Source: Rhodoglobus vestalii | Lineage (GTDB): Bacteria > Actinomycetota > Actinomycetes > Actinomycetales > Microbacteriaceae | Length of the DNA: 64,000 nt | Assembly (NCBI RefSeq): GCF_006788895.1 | Contig: NZ_VFRA01000001.1 | Coordinates: 1 to 64,000, forward strand | Direction: 5' to 3' | Shown: in pieces, positions 28,733 through 45,684 of the stretch | Position numbering within the stretch: position 1 is the stretch's first letter | Layout of the letters: every line of letters begins with the position of its first letter | Notes under the pieces: generated by a model | Database searches by the model: none | What the model was told of the DNA's origin: nothing | What the model saw: only the letters and a program-made list of their open reading frames with translations | Program-made: the position numbers and the translations under genes

Positions 28733-29053
28733 ATGAATATTAGCCAGCGAACAACCGACGAGTGGGAGACCGGCATCGGCGAGCAGTTCCGCGCGCTTCG
28801 CATCCAGCGGGGTCTCGACCAGGAGACGTTAGCCACAATGGCATCAATCAGTAGGGGCGCGGTCCGAAACCTCGAAACGGGTGCTGGCTCGACTCTCAAA
28901 ACGATTGTGAAGGTCACCCGTGCGCTAGACCGCACCGACTGGCTCGACACTCTCGATGATACCGGCGGGGAGATCAGCCCGATCGAGATGCTCCGTCAGC
29001 AGCGGCGCGAGCCGAAGCCCCACCAGCGGGCCCGGCGCAGGACGGACGCCTGA
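28733..29053 (+). CDS. hipB: HipB-type antitoxin, XRE family
   Basis: A 106-residue Cro/CI protein with helix-turn-helix IGEQFRALRIQRGLDQETLA, TMASISRGAVRNLETGAGST and a basic C-terminal tail (QQRREPKPHQRARRRT). It should bind its own promoter and neutralise the HipA kinase. The ATG at 28733 was chosen because the strong promoter places the transcript start beside it; an ATG at 28721 lies inside the -10 box. The stop shares one base with the hipA start (TGATG). Confidence 0.88.
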   Translation: MNISQRTTDEWETGIGEQFRALRIQRGLDQETLATMASISRGAVRNLETGAGSTLKTIVKVTRALDRTDWLDTLDDTGGEISPIEMLRQQRREPKPHQRARRRTDA

Positions 29054-30366
29054 TGGCGTTCGTGCCAACGGGGCTGATCGAAGTGATCGCCTGGGGCCGG
29101 ACAGTCGGGGCTCTCGCCCCCGGCCGGACCCGGAACGCCTACGTTTTTGAGTACGACCCGGCGTGGGTGAGATCCGGTATCGAGATATCGCCAATCCACA
29201 TGCCGACCTCCCGCCGCCAGTACACCTTCCCGGGCCTGCCGTTGGAGACGTTCCAAGGCCTCCCGCCGTCGATCGCGGACGCATTGCCCGACAAGTTCGG
29301 CAACGGGATCATCGACGCGTGGCTTTCGCGCGAGGGCGTACCGACGTCAAGCATCACCGCTCTCGACCGCCTCGCCTACCTCGGAGACCGCGGGCTCGGC
29401 GCGCTTGAGTTCCGTCCCGACACCGGCGCGAAGGACCTACCGCCGAGCGCCCTCGACATGCAGATGCTTGTGCAAAGCGCGCGCGATGCTGTCGCCGGAA
29501 CGTTGACCTCTGACAGTGAGTCCGAGCGGGCGCTCCAACAGATCATCACCGTCGGAACCAGCGCCGGCGGCGCCCGGGCGAAAGCGGTCGTCAACTTCAA
29601 CTCCGCCACGCAGGAGATCAGGCCGGGCCATGTACTCCCTGCCGAGGGCTTCGAAGCGTGGCTGCTGAAATTCGACGGAGTTGGCCTCGATTATCAGCTC
29701 GGAGCCGGCGCAAACTACGGCCGCATCGAGTACGCCTATTCTAAGATGGCGCGAGCCGCCGGCATCACGATGACGGAAACGCGGCTACTCGAAGAGAACG
29801 GTCGAGCGCATTTCATGACCAAACGCTTCGACCGAACGTCAGATCGTCAGAAGCTGCACACCCAGTCGCTGTGCGGGATCTCCATCCTCGACTTCAACGC
29901 CACCGGCACACACGACTACGCCCAGTACCAGGGATCGATCGGTGAGCTCGACCTCGGACTCGACGCGCGGACCGAAGCGTTCCGCCGGATGGTCTTCAAC
30001 GTCGTCGCAGCGAACTGCGATGATCACACGAAGAACTTCGGCTTCCTGATGGACCAGTCCGGGCAGTGGTCCATCGCGCCGGCGTATGACATCACCCATG
30101 CTTTTAACCCGGACGGAGAGTGGACCCACCAGCACCTGATGAGCGTCAACGGTGAGTTCGGCAGGATTCAACGGAAGGACTTTCTGACCTTCGCTGAACG
30201 GCACGGCATCGAGCGAGCCGCGTCGATTATCGGTGAGGTGAATGATGCGGTGCACTCCTGGCCGCAGTTTGCTGTCGAAGCCGGGCTGCCTGCGGCTGTC
30301 ACGGATCTCGTCGCGAAGGACCACCGTGAGGTCGCGTCGGCCCGGAAGAAGCCAGTCCGCCCCTAA
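29053..30366 (+). CDS. hipA: HipA-family serine/threonine kinase toxin
   Basis: HipA-like kinase (437 residues); in E. coli HipA phosphorylates glutamyl-tRNA synthetase and causes dormancy. The N-terminal HipA subdomain (VGALAPGRTRNAYVFEYDPAW) is followed by a nucleotide-binding part (GTSAGGARAKAVVNF, then WLLKFDG with the ATP-binding lysine) and the catalytic loop NCDDHTKNFGFL at about residue 321 with the metal segment APAYDITHAF. All key positions look present, so activity is plausible. Co-translated with hipB. Confidence 0.92.
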   Translation: MAFVPTGLIEVIAWGRTVGALAPGRTRNAYVFEYDPAWVRSGIEISPIHMPTSRRQYTFPGLPLETFQGLPPSIADALPDKFGNGIIDAWLSREGVPTSSITALDRLAYLGDRGLGALEFRPDTGAKDLPPSALDMQMLVQSARDAVAGTLTSDSESERALQQIITVGTSAGGARAKAVVNFNSATQEIRPGHVLPAEGFEAWLLKFDGVGLDYQLGAGANYGRIEYAYSKMARAAGITMTETRLLEENGRAHFMTKRFDRTSDRQKLHTQSLCGISILDFNATGTHDYAQYQGSIGELDLGLDARTEAFRRMVFNVVAANCDDHTKNFGFLMDQSGQWSIAPAYDITHAFNPDGEWTHQHLMSVNGEFGRIQRKDFLTFAERHGIERAASIIGEVNDAVHSWPQFAVEAGLPAAVTDLVAKDHREVASARKKPVRP

Positions 30367-30926: not shown

Positions 30927-31229
30927 TTAAAGGCTTTGATAGGAGAAGGAATGCAGGTCTCCTTGGTTTGAACTGACAAATGAGCGGACGGCATGCCCGA
31001 GCTGCGTGCGGGCTTCAAAAATGTCATCGGCGCGATTCTGAATCTGCTCGGGCGAAGCTCGTGGGCCTAGCTTGGGAACGCTCATGACCAGGTTGAGCGT
31101 CTTCTGAGCTTGCTCAATCGCAGGTGTACGGAACGTGCGTCGGCTGCCGTCTGGCCAAACCAGTTCTGATCGACTCTTGCTGATCCGAATCAATGGATTG
31201 TTCGCGGGGGCTTGTCGTTCCGACGTCAT
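30927..31229 (-). CDS. Hypothetical protein
   Basis: A 100-residue protein of unknown family: ANNPLIRISKSRSELVWPDG, SRRTFRTPAIEQAQKTLNLV and a C-terminal part with NRADDIFEARTQLGHAVRSF. GGGAGAC lies 8-9 nt before the ATG at 31229. Predicted helical and soluble. It is divergent from the HNH endonuclease gene; a regulatory or immunity role is possible but unsupported. Confidence 0.55.
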   Translation of the reverse strand: MTSERQAPANNPLIRISKSRSELVWPDGSRRTFRTPAIEQAQKTLNLVMSVPKLGPRASPEQIQNRADDIFEARTQLGHAVRSFVSSNQGDLHSFSYQSL

Positions 31230-31342
31230 TTGTGTGTCTCCCATCAGCATTCGGCACCGATATTTTCCGCACCGATCACCCTGTGCGCGGCAATTCAGAC
31301 CGCAGGAGCCAACTTCAATTTGATGCCGCGCACAACCCTTGC

Positions 31343-32047
31343 ATGCATAAAAACAAAGGCCGATACGGGCCAATACGTAGAGCCGTAATAAATAGGGATG
31401 CAGCTCTTCTCACAGCAACTATTCGAGCTCGCTGCGCCATCGACGAAAGCGAGGACTCCTGCTGGATTTGGACAGGTGCTCGCGTGCCAGCCGGCTACGG
31501 TTTTGTCGGACGGGACTCTTCGAGGTGCTTCACGCATCGGCTGCATTTTTGGGCCTCCCGGTCTTTTGTAGGCAAACTCTCGGATCTAGAGAGCATTCAT
31601 CATCTTTGTGGAAATCGGGCGTGCGTCAAAATTAGTCATCTAGCGGAAATCAGCTCTTTCATGAACACCATCGAGGCGGGTGCACGCGGAGTCCTTTTGA
31701 ATCGCATCAAAATCCTGCAAAACGCACTTCGAACAGTCGACCCCCACCACCAACTTTTGCGTGATAGCTGGGCGGTGTCGAGCTCGACGCTAAAGGCGAG
31801 GTACAACACGCCCTCGACAAATTTCAGTGACAGGGAGCGGCTTCGTCTCGCCGCGAAACGGGAAGCACTTCGTGCGGCAGCGCAAACGCACCGTGACTTT
31901 CGATTCAGACAGGTCCTCGCTGTCCGAGCCTTCAGGAAGTCGGGCGTCTCCTCGGTCGAGGCACTATCGAGAGTCGGCATAAGTAGGTCGGGGTTTCACG
32001 ACTGGGGCGTCAAGCTTGATCTCACTTTCAATGCAGAGGAACTGTAA
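31343..32047 (+). CDS. HNH endonuclease
   Basis: A 234-residue protein with the HNH_3-type core: CWIWTGARVPAGYGFVGRD (start of the fold), THRLHFW, then ESIHHLCGNRACVKISHL with the H-H, N and C-x-H residues at about 90-110. The C-terminal half has a resolvase-like helix-turn-helix (VSSVEALSRVGISRSGFHDW) that could bind DNA. The ATG at 31343 was chosen because the conserved part begins soon after; there is no clear ribosome site. It could be a homing or restriction-type nuclease carried by the island. Confidence 0.78.
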   Translation: MHKNKGRYGPIRRAVINRDAALLTATIRARCAIDESEDSCWIWTGARVPAGYGFVGRDSSRCFTHRLHFWASRSFVGKLSDLESIHHLCGNRACVKISHLAEISSFMNTIEAGARGVLLNRIKILQNALRTVDPHHQLLRDSWAVSSSTLKARYNTPSTNFSDRERLRLAAKREALRAAAQTHRDFRFRQVLAVRAFRKSGVSSVEALSRVGISRSGFHDWGVKLDLTFNAEEL

Positions 32048-33975: not shown

Positions 33976-34791
33976 TCACGATTCTTCTGCTGAATAAGCT
34001 TCCAAATAGAAGGTGGCGAGCGCTACTGCTGACGATACAACGAGGTGTGCCGTGGCGACATCGAGTTCGGGCCTTTGAACGCCGCCGTTCCCGGTGCCGA
34101 ATCCCGCATTCCGCAACTCTGCGGTAGAAGAGACAATCGAACTCAGAGAGCCAAACAGTTTTCGCCGCTGCTCGGCACCATGTTCGGCACCGCGATGACC
34201 AGTCGCATCCAAACCAAGACGCGCATTGACGTCCTCGACTAGCTTGGGAATGTCGACCTTGGTTTCAGCGCCATTCCCATGTAGCCCGAGAATCGCCTTG
34301 AGTACCGTCTTCAGAAGTTCCTTTGACGCGCCGATTGCAAGCTCGGGGTCATCGCGTAGTCCGCGACGAATCCGTCCGGCATGAATTTCGACGTACTCAA
34401 GCTCTAGCTCCTGTGAAGTAACCTGAAGCTCGTCAACGATCGTATGTGCCTCGCCTGCATATAGCTCACCGTACAACACGGGCTCTTCTCGTTGCAGGAA
34501 GTCTTCCAGGTGCAAATAGTCCTCGACCAAAGAGAGGTTCACAAAGCCATAGGGCCACTGGCTTTGCTTGGTTCGCGTCTTCCCCAGGATGACCGGAACA
34601 GTCTCAATGACGTGCGATAAGTAGTCGCCGTCCCCCCAGTCCAAGCTGCGCAAGAGACGCGCATGCGAGGTGATGTAGTCGAGTTTCCCAGTGATGAGGC
34701 CCAACTCCATCCAGCTGCTGCGGTCAAAAGTGGCTCCGATCGCTTTGACGACAGCCTGTACGATCCTTCCCTCACCTGCGGATTTTCTCAT
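33976..34791 (-). CDS. Abortive infection family protein (Abi-C-like)
   Basis: A 271-residue protein whose C-terminal half matches the Abi C-terminal domain pattern: DPELAIGASKELLKTVLKAI, a variable linker with VDIPKLVEDVNARL, then ELRNAGFGTGNGGVQRPELD and ATAHLVVSSAVALATFYLEA. Such proteins are found in abortive-infection and defence loci, where the C-terminal domain is often HEPN-like. The N-terminal half (about residues 1-120) is not recognised. It stands downstream of the DprA-like gene on the same strand, so it may be part of that defence cluster. Confidence 0.72.
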   Translation of the reverse strand: MRKSAGEGRIVQAVVKAIGATFDRSSWMELGLITGKLDYITSHARLLRSLDWGDGDYLSHVIETVPVILGKTRTKQSQWPYGFVNLSLVEDYLHLEDFLQREEPVLYGELYAGEAHTIVDELQVTSQELELEYVEIHAGRIRRGLRDDPELAIGASKELLKTVLKAILGLHGNGAETKVDIPKLVEDVNARLGLDATGHRGAEHGAEQRRKLFGSLSSIVSSTAELRNAGFGTGNGGVQRPELDVATAHLVVSSAVALATFYLEAYSAEES

Positions 34792-34937: not shown

Positions 34938-35795
34938 CTAGAACAAGGAGAGGTTCGTATCGGGTTCGTCCGCCACATTGGCAAGGGCTTCTTGCAATTC
35001 CTTTGGAGTTGCAATCGCGGTGGCGCCTTGCAGCAATAGCTTCTTGTTTCCCTCGGGGGTGCGGTCGCCGAAGTCGACAACAAAAACCGGACGACCGAGC
35101 TTCATTGCTCCTTCGCCGGCAGCCAAGGTACCTCCTTTTTCACCGGCCTCGATTACAACGAGGGCCTTTGATAGACCGTAGATAATGGCGTTTCGGGCCA
35201 TCGCCGCGTACGCTTGCCAAGTTTGCGTCGGCGCGAATTGGGATAGCACTAGTGTGCGTTTTGAATCGAAGTCGCTAGTGAACTCTCGCTTTATTCGAAA
35301 GTGGTCGATCCCCTCGGCCAACGCAATCACCGTTCGCCCACCACTCCGAAGGGCCGCGAGGTGAGTGGCAGCGTCGACTCCTTGGGCGTACCCAGAAATG
35401 ATGGTCAGATCGTGTTGGCTGACGGCCACCCCGCAACGCTCCGCAGCGCTGAGGCCCTGCGGAGAGACGTGACGAGAACCGCACATACCAACCCCGTCGG
35501 CGTAGAGCAGATCTTTGTTGCCTTTGTAGAAGAGGATCGGCATGAGGGGTTTGCCGTCATGGACCAGCGATTTGGGGAAATCCTCCGCACCGAAAATCAC
35601 CGCCCCAATACCGTCACGCTCCATCATCTTGGCCTTGGCTTCGACATCGGTTCTGGTCGCGCTGTCCAATTCCTCGAACGCGTCCTGAAGAGCACCGTCC
35701 CCGCCTGAACGAAGGGCAGAGGCGATCCTGCCGGGGCTTCGAAGGGATTCGAAGGCTGCGAGCGCGTGGATTAACGTCTTAGTTGCAGTCATCAT
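34938..35795 (-). CDS. DprA/Smf-like Rossmann protein (ShosA/PsyrA-like antitoxin candidate)
   Basis: A 285-residue DprA-type protein lacking the SAM-like and winged-helix domains of competence DprA. The LOG/Rossmann core is visible as VGMCGSRHVSPQGL, IISGYAQGVDAATHLAALRS, GGRTVIALAEGID and VVIEAGEKGGTLAAGEGA. Its start overlaps the upstream phosphoribosyltransferase stop by 4 bp. A phosphoribosyltransferase next to a DprA-like protein is the arrangement of the ShosTA/PsyrTA toxin-antitoxin defence systems, in which the DprA-like protein is the antitoxin. Assignment to that system here is by domain content and order, not by alignment. Confidence 0.75.
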   Translation of the reverse strand: MMTATKTLIHALAAFESLRSPGRIASALRSGGDGALQDAFEELDSATRTDVEAKAKMMERDGIGAVIFGAEDFPKSLVHDGKPLMPILFYKGNKDLLYADGVGMCGSRHVSPQGLSAAERCGVAVSQHDLTIISGYAQGVDAATHLAALRSGGRTVIALAEGIDHFRIKREFTSDFDSKRTLVLSQFAPTQTWQAYAAMARNAIIYGLSKALVVIEAGEKGGTLAAGEGAMKLGRPVFVVDFGDRTPEGNKKLLLQGATAIATPKELQEALANVADEPDTNLSLF

Positions 35796-36613
35796 TTTCG
35801 GATGGTCCTAGCCACTACCAACAGTAATACGGTCGCAGCGCCTGCCCGGCGAGCGGCGGCGGCGGCGCCAGTCGCGCTACCGCCCGTGTGGAAAACGTCG
35901 TCCAGCACGATGATCGTGCCAGCCAGCGGACTCGCAACCGTGAAGATGTCGCTTAAGTCTTGCGGCGTCTCCTTCTGGGCAGGACGCGGTCCCGGTGATG
36001 TCGACTCTACAAAAGGAATCCCAGCTCGATTCGCGACTTCTCTCGCCAATACCTCCCCGAAGCCTTGACCATCGGCATTGTGCCCAGGTGCGGTGACTAT
36101 CGCGCTTGCTGACGCGAATAGTGGATGGCGTGCGATGAAATCGACTAGAGCAGTGATGATTTGCCGGCGCGAGTGTTTCGAGTTGTTGTATTCCGGATGC
36201 GAGGCATACTTGGTGGTCCAAATCCAATACCCCGCTTCGGTCTTAACGATCTCTCCGTCATCGTTGGGCTGGTTATACCAGTCGAGAGCCATCGCATGAT
36301 CGACTTGATCAGGTGAGGGGATACTCAGGCAATTCTGGAGCAGCTCCGCCAAGTCCGTAATGAAAGTAGGGACACCATTAGGGAAGTAGATTCCGTGGGT
36401 GAACGTTTTCTTGGTCTCTCGATCCAACCTAGCCTCACCGCAGAAACCTCCAGCGGATTGCCTAATCTGGTCGGCCACCTCGTTCGGGCCGCAGAGAAGG
36501 AGGAACTCTCCTTGGACCCACTCCATCGTTGCGATCTGGAAGTGGTCGAGCTTTCCGCCACGTTGATCGGGCGTGAACGGAGGCAGGAGCGCTCCCCAGT
36601 CGATATCAGCCAT
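35792..36613 (-). CDS. Phosphoribosyltransferase-domain protein (ShosT/PsyrT-like toxin candidate)
   Basis: A 273-residue protein with a C-terminal type I phosphoribosyltransferase domain: the PRPP-binding loop is GTIIVLDDVFHTGGSATGAA at about residue 235, preceded by SAIVTAPGHNADGQGFGEVL. The N-terminal 130 residues are not recognised. AAGGGAG lies before the ATG at 36613; a TTG at 36619 is possible. It precedes and overlaps the DprA-like gene. In ShosTA/PsyrTA the phosphoribosyltransferase is the toxin released during infection; that role is inferred here. Confidence 0.75.
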   Translation of the reverse strand: MADIDWGALLPPFTPDQRGGKLDHFQIATMEWVQGEFLLLCGPNEVADQIRQSAGGFCGEARLDRETKKTFTHGIYFPNGVPTFITDLAELLQNCLSIPSPDQVDHAMALDWYNQPNDDGEIVKTEAGYWIWTTKYASHPEYNNSKHSRRQIITALVDFIARHPLFASASAIVTAPGHNADGQGFGEVLAREVANRAGIPFVESTSPGPRPAQKETPQDLSDIFTVASPLAGTIIVLDDVFHTGGSATGAAAAARRAGAATVLLLVVARTIRK

Positions 36614-36751
36614 CGGCAATCGCTCCCTTCATTGGGATAAGGCTATCGCTGACCATCGACATCGGCCATTGGGGCGACAAAACCACAACTTGGAATGAAT
36701 TTAGGAATATTTTATTAGATAAATGTCGGCACTTCGTGTAGGTTGTCAATC
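36614..36751. promoter_or_regulatory. Divergent control region between two defence-type modules
   Basis: 138 bp separate the phosphoribosyltransferase and ImmA/IrrE genes, which point apart. An A+T-rich segment (AATATTTTATTAGATAAAT, around 36706-36724) lies before the XRE-ImmA start and could hold its promoter and operator. Confidence 0.45.
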
Positions 36752-37765
36752 ATGATCGATTCCACAGGCGCAACACTGGGTACCATCCGAGTCGCGCGCG
36801 GGCTCAGCCAAAAGGACTTGGCCGTTGCCGCTGGAATCACACAGGGTTTCCTCTCCAAGTTGGAGGCGGGTGCAGTCCCGCTTGATTCGGAGAAGGCTCG
36901 CGTTCTGGCCGAGGCACTCGGGGTTCGCCCAGGGATATTTGGCGTTAACATTTCCCATGATGCCCGCATTTTCCATCGAAAGTTGGCCTCGCTGCCAATA
37001 AAGGCGGACAAGCGGCTTCGCGCCGAATCCGCGCTGCTCCAAAGCCAGGTCTCATCGCTTTTGGGCGGAGACCTCCCCTCGCTCACGCTGGAAAGGGATC
37101 CCCTCCCAGACGATGACATGTATACCCCTAGCGACATCGCGCGCCGCTTACGCAGTAGGTGGAAGCTGGGTACCGGGCCAATCGATGACTTGGTTGCGGT
37201 CGCCGAGAGCCATGGGATCCTCGTAGTCATCCACGACATGCAGACCTTGCGTCTGGACGCCATCGCAACATGGCCAGCCGGTGGTGCGCCCGTGATATTC
37301 CTCGCCGACCACGCGCCCGCGGATCGCCAGCGCTTCACCATGGCCCATGAAATCGGCCACGCGGTTATGCATGAACTTCCGACGATCGAACAGGAGTCTG
37401 AGGCGGACCAGTTCGCCTCAGAGTTCCTCATGCCGGCGGCGACCATCAGATCCGAACTCTCTGACGTTTCACTCAAGAATCTCGCCGCCTTAAAACGGCG
37501 TTGGGGCGTCTCCATTGCGGCACTCGCACGACGAGCTCGCGATCTTAGCCTCATGAGCGACAACCAGTACAAGAATTTCAATATCTACATGTCTTCGAGT
37601 GGGATGAAGAAACGTGAGCCGGTGGAATTGCCCGTCCACGAACCGAGGCTCATCCATGACCTGCTCGACCAACGCCTCGCAGAAGGCAGAACGATCGACG
37701 AACTCGCTACCGCCGCGTGGATGACGGAAAACGAACTAAAAACCCGATTTCTGGAGCACCGCTAA
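36752..37765 (+). CDS. XRE helix-turn-helix plus ImmA/IrrE metallopeptidase regulator
   Basis: A 337-residue two-part regulator: N-terminal Cro/CI domain (LGTIRVARGLSQKDLAVAAG, ITQGFLSKLEAGAVP) and an ImmA/IrrE zinc peptidase domain with AHEIGHAVMH (HExxH, about residue 202) and downstream ESEADQFASEFLMPA providing the third ligand. Family members cleave repressors after a stress signal or act as repressors themselves. The ATG at 36752 was chosen; TTG at 36743 is an alternative. The stop TAATG overlaps the next start by 1 bp, so the pair is translated together. Confidence 0.85.
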   Translation: MIDSTGATLGTIRVARGLSQKDLAVAAGITQGFLSKLEAGAVPLDSEKARVLAEALGVRPGIFGVNISHDARIFHRKLASLPIKADKRLRAESALLQSQVSSLLGGDLPSLTLERDPLPDDDMYTPSDIARRLRSRWKLGTGPIDDLVAVAESHGILVVIHDMQTLRLDAIATWPAGGAPVIFLADHAPADRQRFTMAHEIGHAVMHELPTIEQESEADQFASEFLMPAATIRSELSDVSLKNLAALKRRWGVSIAALARRARDLSLMSDNQYKNFNIYMSSSGMKKREPVELPVHEPRLIHDLLDQRLAEGRTIDELATAAWMTENELKTRFLEHR

Positions 37766-38856
37766 TGACAACCGCAAACCCGACACGTTCAACCCGGACC
37801 GCGCGAGACCTACTCGACAGCCGCCTACTCACCGTTGTTAGCGGACACGCTTTCCCCGCCGCTGCCGCGGGACTCGGCGACACAGGCATGATCATCACGG
37901 GGGCTGTCGGGCTCACCAAACTGAACCACCTCCGTCATGCCCACCCAAACGCACTCCTGATCGCCGAGCCTCGCACGCTAAGCACTTGCACCTCTACTGC
38001 GATTGAACCCTTCGTTCTATCAGAGCCGGGTGCACTTTTCGAGGACACCTTAGAAGACGTTCTCCAGCGGCAACGCGATGCAGGGGCAGACGTTGCCCTT
38101 CTCCCTACTGGATACATCCCTGTCGCGGAGAACGAGACCCTTCGAGAAGTTGTCCGACGCGCGAATCTGATCGAGCGTGACGACACCGCACTTGTTCTTT
38201 CTCTTGATGCGAGCTGGCTGCGTACAGAGCACATCAACTTCGTTATCGCAGTCCTGAAAACGTCATTACTGCCGGTTCTTATCGGATTCGCCCACAACCA
38301 ATCTCCGCTCGGCACCCAGTGGGCGCTGCGCGGATACCGCCAATTGTTCACGGCCGTGCCCGGTCTGTTCGCTCACCGGACCGACATCGCCGGCTTCGAC
38401 GCATACGCGCATGGCGCTTCAGGCGCCAGCATCGGCTCGATCCCCTCCCTTCGACGGTTTACACCGCCCGACCAAAAGTCTTGGTCCAGCAACCCCACTG
38501 ACCGGACACCCCATGTCTTAGTCGGCTCCATGCTCCGATACGTTCGCGGCAGCGTTCTCCACACCTCGTACTACCAATCGACTCCAGCACCCAACTGCTC
38601 TTGTGTGATTTGTGATGGACGCCCGATCGACCGGTTCATTACCGACAGCGCCGAACAAAAGCGGGACGCAGCACTACATTCAGCGTCCGTCCTTACAGAA
38701 CTTTGGGATCGGGTCGACCCAAGCAACCCACGAGCATGGTGGCGGAACGCCCGGGAAGAGACTATGGCCGCCAACGCCACTCTCGCCACGCAGATCGGCC
38801 GTCCAATAAAAGACGACTACCTGAGCTCCTGGGAAAAGTTCGATTCACTGCGATAA
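37765..38856 (+). CDS. Uncharacterised protein with a TGT-like zinc motif, coupled to ImmA/IrrE
   Basis: A 363-residue soluble protein with alternating strand and helix segments (NALLIAEPRT, GADVALLPTGYIP, ALVLSLDASW, LLPVLIGFAHNQSP, HGASGASIGSIPSLRRF) that could form a TIM-type barrel. Near residue 275 lies NCSCVICDGRP, a C-x-C-x2-C motif, with a histidine 22 residues later (AALHSASV). The same C-x-C-x2-C-x(~25)-H arrangement forms the zinc site of tRNA-guanine transglycosylases and their DNA-modifying DpdA relatives. Catalytic aspartates could not be assigned. A base-exchange role in nucleic-acid modification or defence is a hypothesis. Confidence 0.55.
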   Translation: MTTANPTRSTRTARDLLDSRLLTVVSGHAFPAAAAGLGDTGMIITGAVGLTKLNHLRHAHPNALLIAEPRTLSTCTSTAIEPFVLSEPGALFEDTLEDVLQRQRDAGADVALLPTGYIPVAENETLREVVRRANLIERDDTALVLSLDASWLRTEHINFVIAVLKTSLLPVLIGFAHNQSPLGTQWALRGYRQLFTAVPGLFAHRTDIAGFDAYAHGASGASIGSIPSLRRFTPPDQKSWSSNPTDRTPHVLVGSMLRYVRGSVLHTSYYQSTPAPNCSCVICDGRPIDRFITDSAEQKRDAALHSASVLTELWDRVDPSNPRAWWRNAREETMAANATLATQIGRPIKDDYLSSWEKFDSLR

Positions 38857-39405
38857 GAGCCACTCGCGGTAGACCTGCTCGGCGAACAACCATGAGGCCA
38901 GCGAGAACCGCTCCGGTTCGAACGGCGCCGGCGCCGCCAATATTGTTTCGTTTACCCCTTCACCCACGACTAAACCGACGCCGTAGAAGGAAGCCTCAAG
39001 TAAAGCGGCGGAAGATTCACGAGGCTCTGTTCTTAGCACTACGGTTCTCTCGGTGTATCCGGCGAACTTGCTGGCCCGCGAAAGCCCAGCTCCCCACGAG
39101 CCCGCGTTGATGCGAGCCCCGCAAACCGTCACCGGCGGAGCGATCGAGGGCACACACCGGTCCTGGTCTTCGGCAAAGCCCGAGAGCCACAATTGCCCTC
39201 TAGCAGGTGGTGAATCAAAATCGGTCTCTTCAAAAGCTGCAAGCAACTGCCCCACAGAAACGAATGCGCCAGCTCCTCGCGACTGTCGCGACGCGTGTTC
39301 TAGTACATCAACTGAGAACAAGAGACTAGCGCTGACTCCTCGCACCTTTGCAGTCATCGCCTGAATCACTTGTCGATCAGCAACCAACTCAGAGTTGACC
39401 CACAC
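38845..39405 (-). CDS. Hypothetical protein
   Basis: A 186-residue protein of unknown family, starting at a GTG preceded by GGAGG. Notable stretches are AGAFVSVGQLLAAFEETDF, SPPARGQLWLSGFAEDQDRC and GARINAGSWGAGLSRASKFA; no catalytic motif, signal peptide or membrane helix stands out. It is convergent with the TGT-like gene and overlaps its end by 12 bp, so it may be an accessory or later arrival. Confidence 0.5.
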   Translation of the reverse strand: MWVNSELVADRQVIQAMTAKVRGVSASLLFSVDVLEHASRQSRGAGAFVSVGQLLAAFEETDFDSPPARGQLWLSGFAEDQDRCVPSIAPPVTVCGARINAGSWGAGLSRASKFAGYTERTVVLRTEPRESSAALLEASFYGVGLVVGEGVNETILAAPAPFEPERFSLASWLFAEQVYREWLLSQ

Positions 39406-42933: not shown

Positions 42934-43830
42934 TTAGAAACCAGTTTCGAGCAGCGTCTGCGCTTGAGAATTGAGTGCGAGAACTTCCGCAGTCTCAACG
43001 ATGTAGCGAAAGACGGGCATTCGTGCGAGTTCTGAAAATTCTAAAGCGGCGGGAGTCAACGAACCGCTCGTGAACAACATTGGTGCCAATTCCATTACGA
43101 CGCCAACGCCGAGAATTTCGCGAACTTCTTCGATGGGAACTGTTCCAGAATAGTTTTTGACGCTCACCGCGTATTTATCGGTGATTACATCGACGCCGCC
43201 ATCTCCACTCGCTTGAGTAACTACCGCGTCTTCTTGGGAAAGCCACCGAAGCATCTCTGCCGCCCATACCTCTGCACCCCGAGGCGACACACCGTACGGC
43301 TGGGGAGCGGGCGCTGGATACCTGCCATCTAACGGTGGTGCAGGCATGAGTGCTCCGACAGTGTCAATTGCCCGGGCTTCCGCCGCATCCCAAATCGGCT
43401 GCAACTTCGCTGCAAGCTTTTCTGCTGCAGCCTCTTGCTGCCGCTCACGCTCGACGAGCCGCCGTTCTTGTTCCAGCTTCCTCGCGGAAATTCCCTTTGG
43501 CAGCGGCGTCGAGAAGATTGGTTTTCTTAGAAAATCCGTTCCTGCGATGAAGAGCCTACTCATGTAGAGATTGTGGAGACGCTCAACGAAAGCTTCGTCG
43601 TCATCGATGCCCGTAATGAGAGTGAGCGCGCCGACTAAGTTCTCGCCAATGGACTCGACTTCTTCAGGCATCCCGCCGTAAAGAGGGGAGTCGCCTATGA
43701 AGAGCCCTTCCACTACGAATGGCGCAAGAGCAGTGGCAGCCTTATTCACGACGAATTCGAGGTCGTCGAGCGTGATCGATGGATCGTCGGCAGCGATTCG
43801 AATCGCGAGATCACCAATTTGTCTATTCAT
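42934..43830 (-). CDS. Mrr-like restriction endonuclease
   Basis: A 298-residue protein with a C-terminal restriction-endonuclease (Mrr_cat-like) domain: WAAEMLRWLSQEDAVVTQAS, GDGGVDVITDKYAVSVKNYS (the D and x-V-K of a PD-(D/E)xK site, about residues 213-230), then VPIEEVREILGVGVVMELAP. The middle part is a charged coiled coil (KLEQERRLVERERQQEAAAE). Mrr-type enzymes cut methylated or otherwise modified DNA, so this would complement the type I system. The usual Q-x-K is S-V-K here. Confidence 0.78.
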   Translation of the reverse strand: MNRQIGDLAIRIAADDPSITLDDLEFVVNKAATALAPFVVEGLFIGDSPLYGGMPEEVESIGENLVGALTLITGIDDDEAFVERLHNLYMSRLFIAGTDFLRKPIFSTPLPKGISARKLEQERRLVERERQQEAAAEKLAAKLQPIWDAAEARAIDTVGALMPAPPLDGRYPAPAPQPYGVSPRGAEVWAAEMLRWLSQEDAVVTQASGDGGVDVITDKYAVSVKNYSGTVPIEEVREILGVGVVMELAPMLFTSGSLTPAALEFSELARMPVFRYIVETAEVLALNSQAQTLLETGF

Positions 43831-44370: not shown

Positions 44371-45684
44371 CTACTTGGTTTTCGGGCTCTTCTTATCGTC
44401 TCCCTTGCCCTTATTGGTCTTTGGAGATTTCTTATCCTTCTTCTTGCCACCTGTCTCGTCGGCCTTTTCTCCACCGAAGTGTTCACTCATCTTCGCGGCG
44501 AGTTCGGCACTGCGGCCGGTGGTGTGCTGATAGCGCATTGCGACGTTGGCGGTGGTGTGGCCGAGGCGGTCTTGGAGTTCTTTAATTGTCGCTCCGGTTT
44601 GGGCGAATGCGGTGGCGCCGAAGTGCCTGAGTGCATGGAAGTGGAGGTCGCCGCGTCCGGCGGCTTCTCTGGCTGGATACCAGTAGTCGGTCCAGGTTGA
44701 CGCGGCAAGATGAAGACCCCCTCCCGTCATCGCTTCGTAGACCAGAGATTCTGGGTCTTCACCGACTCGGTCGCGGAGATGGTCGAGGACGATGTCGTTG
44801 ACGTGGGGTGGGAGCGGCACGATACGGATACCGGCTTTGGACTTTGGCGGTCGGAGAATGAATCCCTCACCGGCAACATGGGTGACACCGCGGGAGACAT
44901 CTACATAGATGGTTGTCCGAGGTCGTTTGGCTGTTCCTTCATCGACGATGAGGATGTCCTTGCGGCGCAGCTCGGTGATCTCACCGAACCGCAGAGCAGC
45001 CCACGCACCGAGGACGACCATCGCCTTGAATCTGGGGTCGATGACTTCCAAAATCGTTTTGAGTTCTGTGGCTGTGGGTGGCTTCACCTCAACTCCGGTG
45101 ACGGCGTTGCCGGCTCCTCTTACTTTGCAGGGGGAGACCTGGATAATCCCGTCGTGGACTGCCTGGTCCATGATCGAACGCAGCACCGTGTAGACGCGGG
45201 CTGATTGCGTGACTTTGCCGGTAGCGCGCTGCGCCTTATTCCATTCCCGGACGTCGGTTGGGGTGATCATTGCGATGCGCTGCTCGGACAGCGGAGGGAG
45301 CAGTCTCCTGACCATGCTCAGGTAGTCTTTCCGGGTTCGTGGCGCAAGTTCGCCACCATCTGTCTTCACCCGCGCCATAACCCACTTTTCAGCATACGGA
45401 CCCAAGACTTCTGCTCGCCCTGCTTTGGCTGCACCGTCAGCAGAGGCGGATGCGTAGTTCCAGTCACCGCTGTCGAGCAGGACTCTGACGCGGGCAAGCC
45501 AGGCGCGAGCTTCCGACTTGGTTGGGTAGCTTTTGGGTCCCCGGTATCGTTTACCATCAGGGCCCATGTAGGAGGCGACGTAGCGCTTGCTTGATGATTC
45601 TCGAACAGTTCCGAAGGATTCACGCTTCTTGCGCTTCTTCGCAGGTGGCGTATTTTCGGCGGGTGGAGCTGATCCAGCCATCAT
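44371..45684 (-). CDS. int: Tyrosine-type site-specific integrase of the island
   Basis: A 437-residue phage-type integrase. An N-terminal arm-binding domain (RYVASYMGPDGKRYRGPKSY) and core-binding helix bundle (ARVYTVLRSIMDQAVHDGI) precede the catalytic domain with R232 (AALRFGEI), H350-x-x-R353 (HALRHFGAT), H376 (RLGHTTANV) and the nucleophile Y385 (MRYQHTTG). The C-terminus is an unusual lysine-rich tail with a repeated KKSPKT motif. It reads inward from just inside attR. It should insert and, with the excisionase-like protein at 17065, remove the island at tRNA-Val. Confidence 0.95.
   Translation of the reverse strand: MMAGSAPPAENTPPAKKRKKRESFGTVRESSSKRYVASYMGPDGKRYRGPKSYPTKSEARAWLARVRVLLDSGDWNYASASADGAAKAGRAEVLGPYAEKWVMARVKTDGGELAPRTRKDYLSMVRRLLPPLSEQRIAMITPTDVREWNKAQRATGKVTQSARVYTVLRSIMDQAVHDGIIQVSPCKVRGAGNAVTGVEVKPPTATELKTILEVIDPRFKAMVVLGAWAALRFGEITELRRKDILIVDEGTAKRPRTTIYVDVSRGVTHVAGEGFILRPPKSKAGIRIVPLPPHVNDIVLDHLRDRVGEDPESLVYEAMTGGGLHLAASTWTDYWYPAREAAGRGDLHFHALRHFGATAFAQTGATIKELQDRLGHTTANVAMRYQHTTGRSAELAAKMSEHFGGEKADETGGKKKDKKSPKTNKGKGDDKKSPKTK

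Follow-up and report, generated by a model that had tools for sequence, protein, structure and literature searches.

What would a protein with the zinc site of a tRNA-guanine transglycosylase (TGT) do behind an ImmA/IrrE regulator? The question is raised by positions 1 to 64,000 (forward strand) of contig NZ_VFRA01000001.1 of Rhodoglobus vestalii (assembly GCF_006788895.1), the 64,000-nt stretch analyzed here as "the window", in which a gene for a helix-turn-helix (HTH) plus ImmA/IrrE protein is followed by a gene for a TGT-like protein (Table 1). A preliminary description of this DNA took the pair for a two-gene unit in a defence island, and proposed a stress- or phage-triggered exchange of nucleobases, with TGT and DpdA, an enzyme of 7-deazaguanine DNA modification, as models. 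We found, however, that the cassette is larger than two genes: a third, convergent gene forms part of it, and is a commoner partner of the TGT-like gene than is ImmA. The reading that we tentatively favour, at a little less than even confidence, is that of a RosmerTA-like defence or toxin-antitoxin cassette with a swapped partner, in which a TGT-fold effector would be combined with a PD-(D/E)xK-like third protein.

Zinc site, predicted fold and catalytic residues of the TGT-like protein

The TGT-like protein matched no family at E <= 1 in Pfam (including the TGT family, PF01702), NCBIfam or PHROGs. In PADLOC it matched DpdA alone, along 46 residues around the zinc site and with an E of 0.033; eight of its relatives gave no DpdA match at E <= 1. 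In an alignment of 30 TGT-like proteins, the zinc site noted in the preliminary description, C-x-C-x2-C with a histidine 22 residues on (C278, C280, C283, and H305), is invariant. So are P181, G224, R230, and W326, and a further four residues (R205, D207, G217, and W151) are kept in 29 of the 30. The same zinc pattern, with its downstream histidine, occurs in all 18 PF01702 proteins examined and in a true DpdA from the phylum (L112).

The predicted model of the protein is modest (predicted local distance difference test score, pLDDT, 61), and matches TGTs over most of its length, in keeping with the fold that had been anticipated. It contains a predicted TGT-type barrel with a zinc subdomain, and the TGT fold was found in all 50 rows among the matches listed from a structural search. 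Those rows are filled by Tgt entries and do not include DpdA, and are therefore uninformative on likeness to DpdA. Compared with PDB sequences, the profile of the family found no TGT, and gave two weak matches to maleylacetate reductase; alignment of the profile with 18 true TGTs by hhalign was confined to the zinc region.

TGT uses two catalytic aspartates, Asp102 and Asp280 in the Z. mobilis enzyme, and binds guanine through Asp156. Conserved aspartates matching the catalytic pair, which the preliminary description had proposed to look for, did not emerge: a single acidic column of the alignment, D207, reaches 80% conservation. The column matched to Asp102 holds D or E in 22 of the 30 proteins and Q in the other 8, and that matched to Asp156 is not conserved. 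All 30 proteins have glycine six residues ahead of the invariant R230, a position that in TGT, counted back from the arginine there, is taken by Asp280. This match of Asp280 to Gly224 has no scored alignment behind it; since hhalign aligned the zinc region only, and sub-alignments gave another, low-confidence register (AHGASGASIG of the window protein on IGGLSVGE of TGT), it rests on strand order and spacing. Judged from the aligned sequences, the two TGT-like aspartates are not both conserved, whatever the register. The window protein thus resembles Tgt in its predicted barrel and zinc motif, but differs in having no Pfam match and an incomplete catalytic pair.

The host differs as well. The R. 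vestalii genome, which is 99.99% complete, has no match to PF01702, although all 14 control genomes had one (as did 34 of 60 genomes of the phylum in a second control), and it has no full QueC, the partial QueC matches all being below cut-off. QueC was also sought in a set of 27 genomes, comprising the 24 with a TGT-like gene from the class search described below (R. vestalii included), a false positive of that search (G478), G036, and G042. A near full-length QueC (E < 1e-57) was present in four (G511, G537, G571, and G661); the raw total, nine, also counts matches that are short and partial. Host-made 7-deazaguanine is consequently not a general substrate of these proteins, but salvaged or phage-made 7-deazaguanine bases may be.

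Relatives of the TGT-like protein are patchily distributed. A search with the single sequence found the gene in 3 of 296 genomes of the phylum, own genome included, and a protein search returned three close relatives, with 68–83% identity. A profile of six TGT-like proteins added eight further relatives from the protein search. In the class, a profile search matched 25 of 394 genomes, again counting R. vestalii. One of these (G478) was judged false; its match, L057, has an E of 3e-5, looks by eye like an alcohol-dehydrogenase-like frame, and was dropped. A scan of genome contigs gave one relative, on the same contig as G036. Viral contigs and phage records held none, and plasmids held one, on an Arthrobacter agilis plasmid, where zeta-toxin and RES genes are a few genes away. 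The locus counts below refer to 27 loci (the window, L004, L005, L007, and L034 to L056), all of which were selected for having a TGT-like gene: two came from the phylum search, one from a tblastn search of plasmids, and the remainder from the class search. A second weak TGT-like frame in L050 was dropped before counting, and the near-identical pair L046/L047 is counted twice.

Partners of the TGT-like gene

The third gene is arranged tail-to-tail with the TGT-like gene and ends inside it, the two overlapping by 12 nt. A homologue occupies the same place in 22 of the 27 loci, which makes it the most constant partner of the TGT-like gene; the 3′ ends of the two genes overlap in 16 loci and abut in two. 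In 11 of the 27, the gene immediately upstream of the TGT-like gene is an ImmA gene, complete or broken.

The third protein has no match in Pfam, NCBIfam, PADLOC, or PHROGs. Its predicted model (pLDDT 81; predicted template modelling score 0.75) gave middling matches to known PD-(D/E)xK folds (SPO1766 3dnx, YaeQ, and PaqCI). It differs from those proteins in that the catalytic E-x-K is missing from the window protein, and [DE]-x-K occurs in at most one of 13 aligned members at any column. When the third gene was itself used as the query, 23 of the 394 class genomes matched: 12 have an adjoining TGT-like gene from the class search, G306 is a 13th, and ten have no TGT-like match. Flanks were examined in seven of the 11 genomes other than the 12, and held a TGT-like gene in one (G306) and not in six. 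A single branch of the family was represented in the query, and the divergent third genes of L045-L048, L052, L053, and L056 escaped it.

Three observations were made on the margins of this family. In the most distant third-gene homologue, that of L056 (4729-5577), which lies outside the 13-member alignment, a VEAK motif with PD upstream was seen by eye; going by these motifs, the L056 protein is perhaps an active PD-(D/E)xK enzyme. The TGT-like relative of G306 (L085, 4707-5831, E 6.4e-34) has partly lost its zinc cysteines, with C-x2-C left by eye; its gene is convergent with the third gene, and an ImmA-like gene stands ~2.2 kb off on the other strand. Finally, a distant third-gene homologue with no TGT-like neighbour occurs in four genomes of one genus (g266; L086, L089, L090, and L091), no more than a few kb from a gene that, by eye, looks like one for glutamate racemase.

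The ImmA protein is of a familiar kind. It matches HTH_3 (PF01381) and Peptidase_M78 (PF06114) above cut-off and has the HExxH motif (as HEIGH), as the preliminary description had read it; in PADLOC it matches RmrA best (E 2.9e-59), and among the PHROGs it matches PHROG 2439, a transcriptional regulator, at E 5.6e-72. By these matches it is an RmrA-type protein, as known from RosmerTA. In published work on RosmerTA, RmrA proteins pair with different toxins, and one RosmerTA protects against phages (PMC10440598). The window cassette has in common with the systems described there an HTH plus ImmA protein as the constant half, an adjoining and overlapping partner gene, and an ImmA hub with varied partners (PMC10440598). 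It differs in that the partner appears to be a TGT-fold protein, is encoded downstream, and is not a known RmrT (no RmrT match to it in PADLOC at E <= 1), and in the presence of the third convergent gene. Neither "transglycosylase" nor "TIM barrel" occurs in the main text of PMC10440598.

Upstream ImmA genes are complete in the window, L007, L036, L040, L042, L045, L046, and L047, and also in L005, whose ImmA protein is more distant and overlaps the TGT-like gene. The two broken copies are in L037 (5879-7291) and L050 (1-2267), the TGT-like frame of L050 being broken too, which suggests that ImmA is in the process of being lost or that the assemblies contain errors. The other 16 loci showed no ImmA-like frame by hidden Markov model in the fetched stretch, and no HExxH frame upstream. 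On a tree of 34 TGT-like proteins (L050, L053, and L057 left out), the ten ImmA-linked rows represented belong to four lineages: the window; L036/L037/L040/L042; L007/L045-L047; and L005. A recurrent linkage to ImmA/IrrE, which the preliminary description had proposed to check, is supported. The ImmA label changes seven times on the tree, compared with a shuffled mean of 7.0; it is thus clustered no more than by chance, a pattern to be expected of an ancient association followed by losses, or else of repeated gain.

With the window ImmA protein as the sole query, 153 of the 394 class genomes had some match. Six of the seven best foreign places directly adjoin a TGT-like gene, two of the six (G489 and G620) being near-identical loci. 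The exception, G443, which ranked fifth, and the next four genomes (G576, G390, G338, and G514) have directly upstream of ImmA a different gene, of ~200 aa (L125 861-1472, L128 875-1468, L129 2481-3164, L130 1891-2511, and L131 2520-3149), which overlaps the RmrA-like ImmA gene by 4 nt in four of the five loci. Every one of the five ~200-aa proteins has a BLASTP match (E <= 2e-5) to one or more of the others. No PADLOC or NCBIfam model matched any of the five, and no Pfam model matched the two that were tested; to judge from sequence and gene order, they are possibly an unlisted RmrT-type toxin family. It follows from these results that one RmrA-like branch goes with the TGT-like protein, and its near kin with another partner. 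A RosmerTA system with the ~200-aa partner was considered for the window and ruled out, given that the TGT-like gene takes the place of the partner there.

The evolutionary distances of the three proteins are correlated. For the TGT-like and third proteins r was 0.89 across 19 loci, and for the TGT-like and ImmA proteins 0.85 across eight loci, with 0 of 5000 permutations as high in either case; for the third and ImmA proteins, r was 0.78 across eight loci (4 of 5000 permutations as high). L047, L050, and L053 were left out of these comparisons, and the correlations include whatever is due to shared ancestry of the hosts.

Possible functions of the cassette

The known role of TGT-fold proteins is to exchange bases in tRNA and DNA. 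In the RosmerTA-like reading that we favour, the HTH-ImmA protein would repress the operon, restrain the TGT-fold protein and, through its metalloprotease domain, respond to infection or stress. The released TGT-fold protein would then dock on nucleic acid, most likely tRNA and possibly phage DNA, by means of its zinc subdomain and barrel face. With an active site rebuilt around D207, R205, and R230, it would probably remove or block a base, rather than swap in a host-made 7-deazaguanine. The third protein, PD-(D/E)xK-like and without E-x-K, would probably be a binding partner or inhibitor of the TGT-fold protein, and antisense control could arise in addition from the overlap of the convergent transcripts. 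Such a family, with the zinc site and predicted fold kept, the catalytic residues changed, hosts mostly lacking a full QueC, and a coupling to an RmrA-type protease, would add an effector of a new type to ImmA-controlled defence, and would mean that the TGT scaffold has a new chemistry or has been put to a new use; its tail-to-tail third partner makes it a compact, directly testable three-gene unit. A more specific proposal, which we consider unlikely, is that the three genes form a defence system in which the TGT-fold effector acts as a nucleic-acid N-glycosidase. Here, the standard nucleophile would have been lost, and D207, one strand earlier, would serve to excise rather than exchange a base in tRNA or phage DNA, with the RmrA-type protease-repressor as the trigger and a dead, convergently encoded PD-(D/E)xK protein as the restraint.

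Alternatively, the TGT-fold protein might be a pseudo-enzyme that recognizes 7-deazaguanine bases, so that the third protein or a host nuclease could act against phages that carry them. Such binding would be in character for a TGT pocket whose catalysis has changed, the third protein resembles PD-(D/E)xK folds (L056, its distant homologue, retaining VEAK by eye), and another system, GrwAB, restricts 7-deazaguanine phages in a modification-dependent manner (PMC12137116). We nonetheless think this rather improbable, given that E-x-K is absent from the third protein of the window and from the 13 aligned members, and that the residue matched to the guanine-binding Asp156 is not conserved.

The cassette could also have no part in defence. 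QTRT2 is a non-catalytic subunit of TGT, and the TGT-like and third genes might form an accessory unit that, for example, binds tRNA in like fashion, with ImmA as a local regulator only. The absence of ImmA beside the TGT-like gene in 16 of the 27 loci, and a zinc site that appears to have outlived the usual catalytic residues, would agree with such a role. Its probability is nevertheless low in our estimation, in view of the patchy distribution in the class, the plasmid copy near toxin genes, the defence-type neighbours, and the lack of any TGT in the R. vestalii genome for it to assist.

Least probable is the Dpd-like modification or nucleobase exchange of the preliminary description, in which the TGT-like protein puts 7-deazaguanine in DNA or tRNA and so marks self or damages phage: the zinc motif, the predicted barrel, the weak DpdA match, and the acidic residue at the Asp102 column in most members speak for it, but we rejected it as the principal explanation because the host has no full QueC, the DpdA match is at E 0.033, and the aspartate pair is not kept, and the scarcity of QueC in the other genomes, the host's lack of a PF01702 match, D207 as the lone conserved acidic column, and the eight relatives with no DpdA match also count against it.

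Genomic neighbourhood and related systems

Table 1. Features of the R. vestalii window, with positions counted from its first nucleotide.
Feature	Position	Strand	Evidence
HTH plus ImmA/IrrE (Peptidase_M78) protein, RmrA-type regulator/antitoxin, HEIGH motif, 337 aa; intact	36752..37765	+	Pfam, PADLOC, PHROG
TGT-fold protein (predicted), 363 aa, zinc site C278/C280/C283/H305	37765..38856	+	30-member alignment, model, structural matches
Third protein, 186 aa, PD-(D/E)xK-like predicted fold, without catalytic E-x-K	38845..39405	-	Homologues, model
TAATG stop/start overlap, coupling the ImmA and TGT-like genes	37763..37767	+	Sequence
DprA-like plus phosphoribosyltransferase-like pair (PsyrTA/ShosTA-like), 4-nt overlap, divergent from the ImmA gene; context	34938..36619	-	PADLOC
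AbiJ-like abortive-infection protein; context	33976..34791	-	Pfam AbiJ_NTD5 E 4.2e-15, Abi_C E 3.8e-11; PADLOC AbiJ E 2.3e-10
HipA-like gene	29053-30366		
HNH endonuclease gene	31193-32047		
Mrr-type restriction enzyme gene	42934-43830		
Phage-type integrase gene	44371-45684		

The 1-bp TAATG overlap of the first two genes is as originally described. The suggestion of a defence-type neighbourhood also held: the DprA-like/phosphoribosyltransferase-like pair matched PsyrA (E 4.6e-48), ShosA (E 3.2e-41), and ShosT (E 2.2e-5) in PADLOC, and an AbiJ-like gene lies nearby. With its HipA-like, HNH, Mrr-type, and integrase genes, the region looks like an island.

We found no description of the combination of ImmA, TGT-like, and third genes in the open-licence PMC literature. 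The TGT homologues in defence operons that are described in PMC12839542 are components of Dpd and of BREX-related capture (BRC), and the main text of that paper makes no mention of ImmA. BRC, like the window, has a TGT homologue in a defence operon (PMC12839542), and two relatives of the window protein adjoin PglW. The same paper associates BRC with HerA/FtsK, PglZ, DUF6079, and DUF4007; the scanned genes, which cover part of the window, include none of these.

The neighbours of the relatives are seven proteins picked from five of the 27 loci, and hence do not give a rate. PglW is found beside L039 and L044 (1224 and 1396 bits), a TIR-type protein beside L038, a Type I methylase near L043, and a helicase-type protein near L052. 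Weak matches to DpdF and DpdJ among the scanned neighbours correspond to phosphoribosyltransferase-like and helicase-type proteins.
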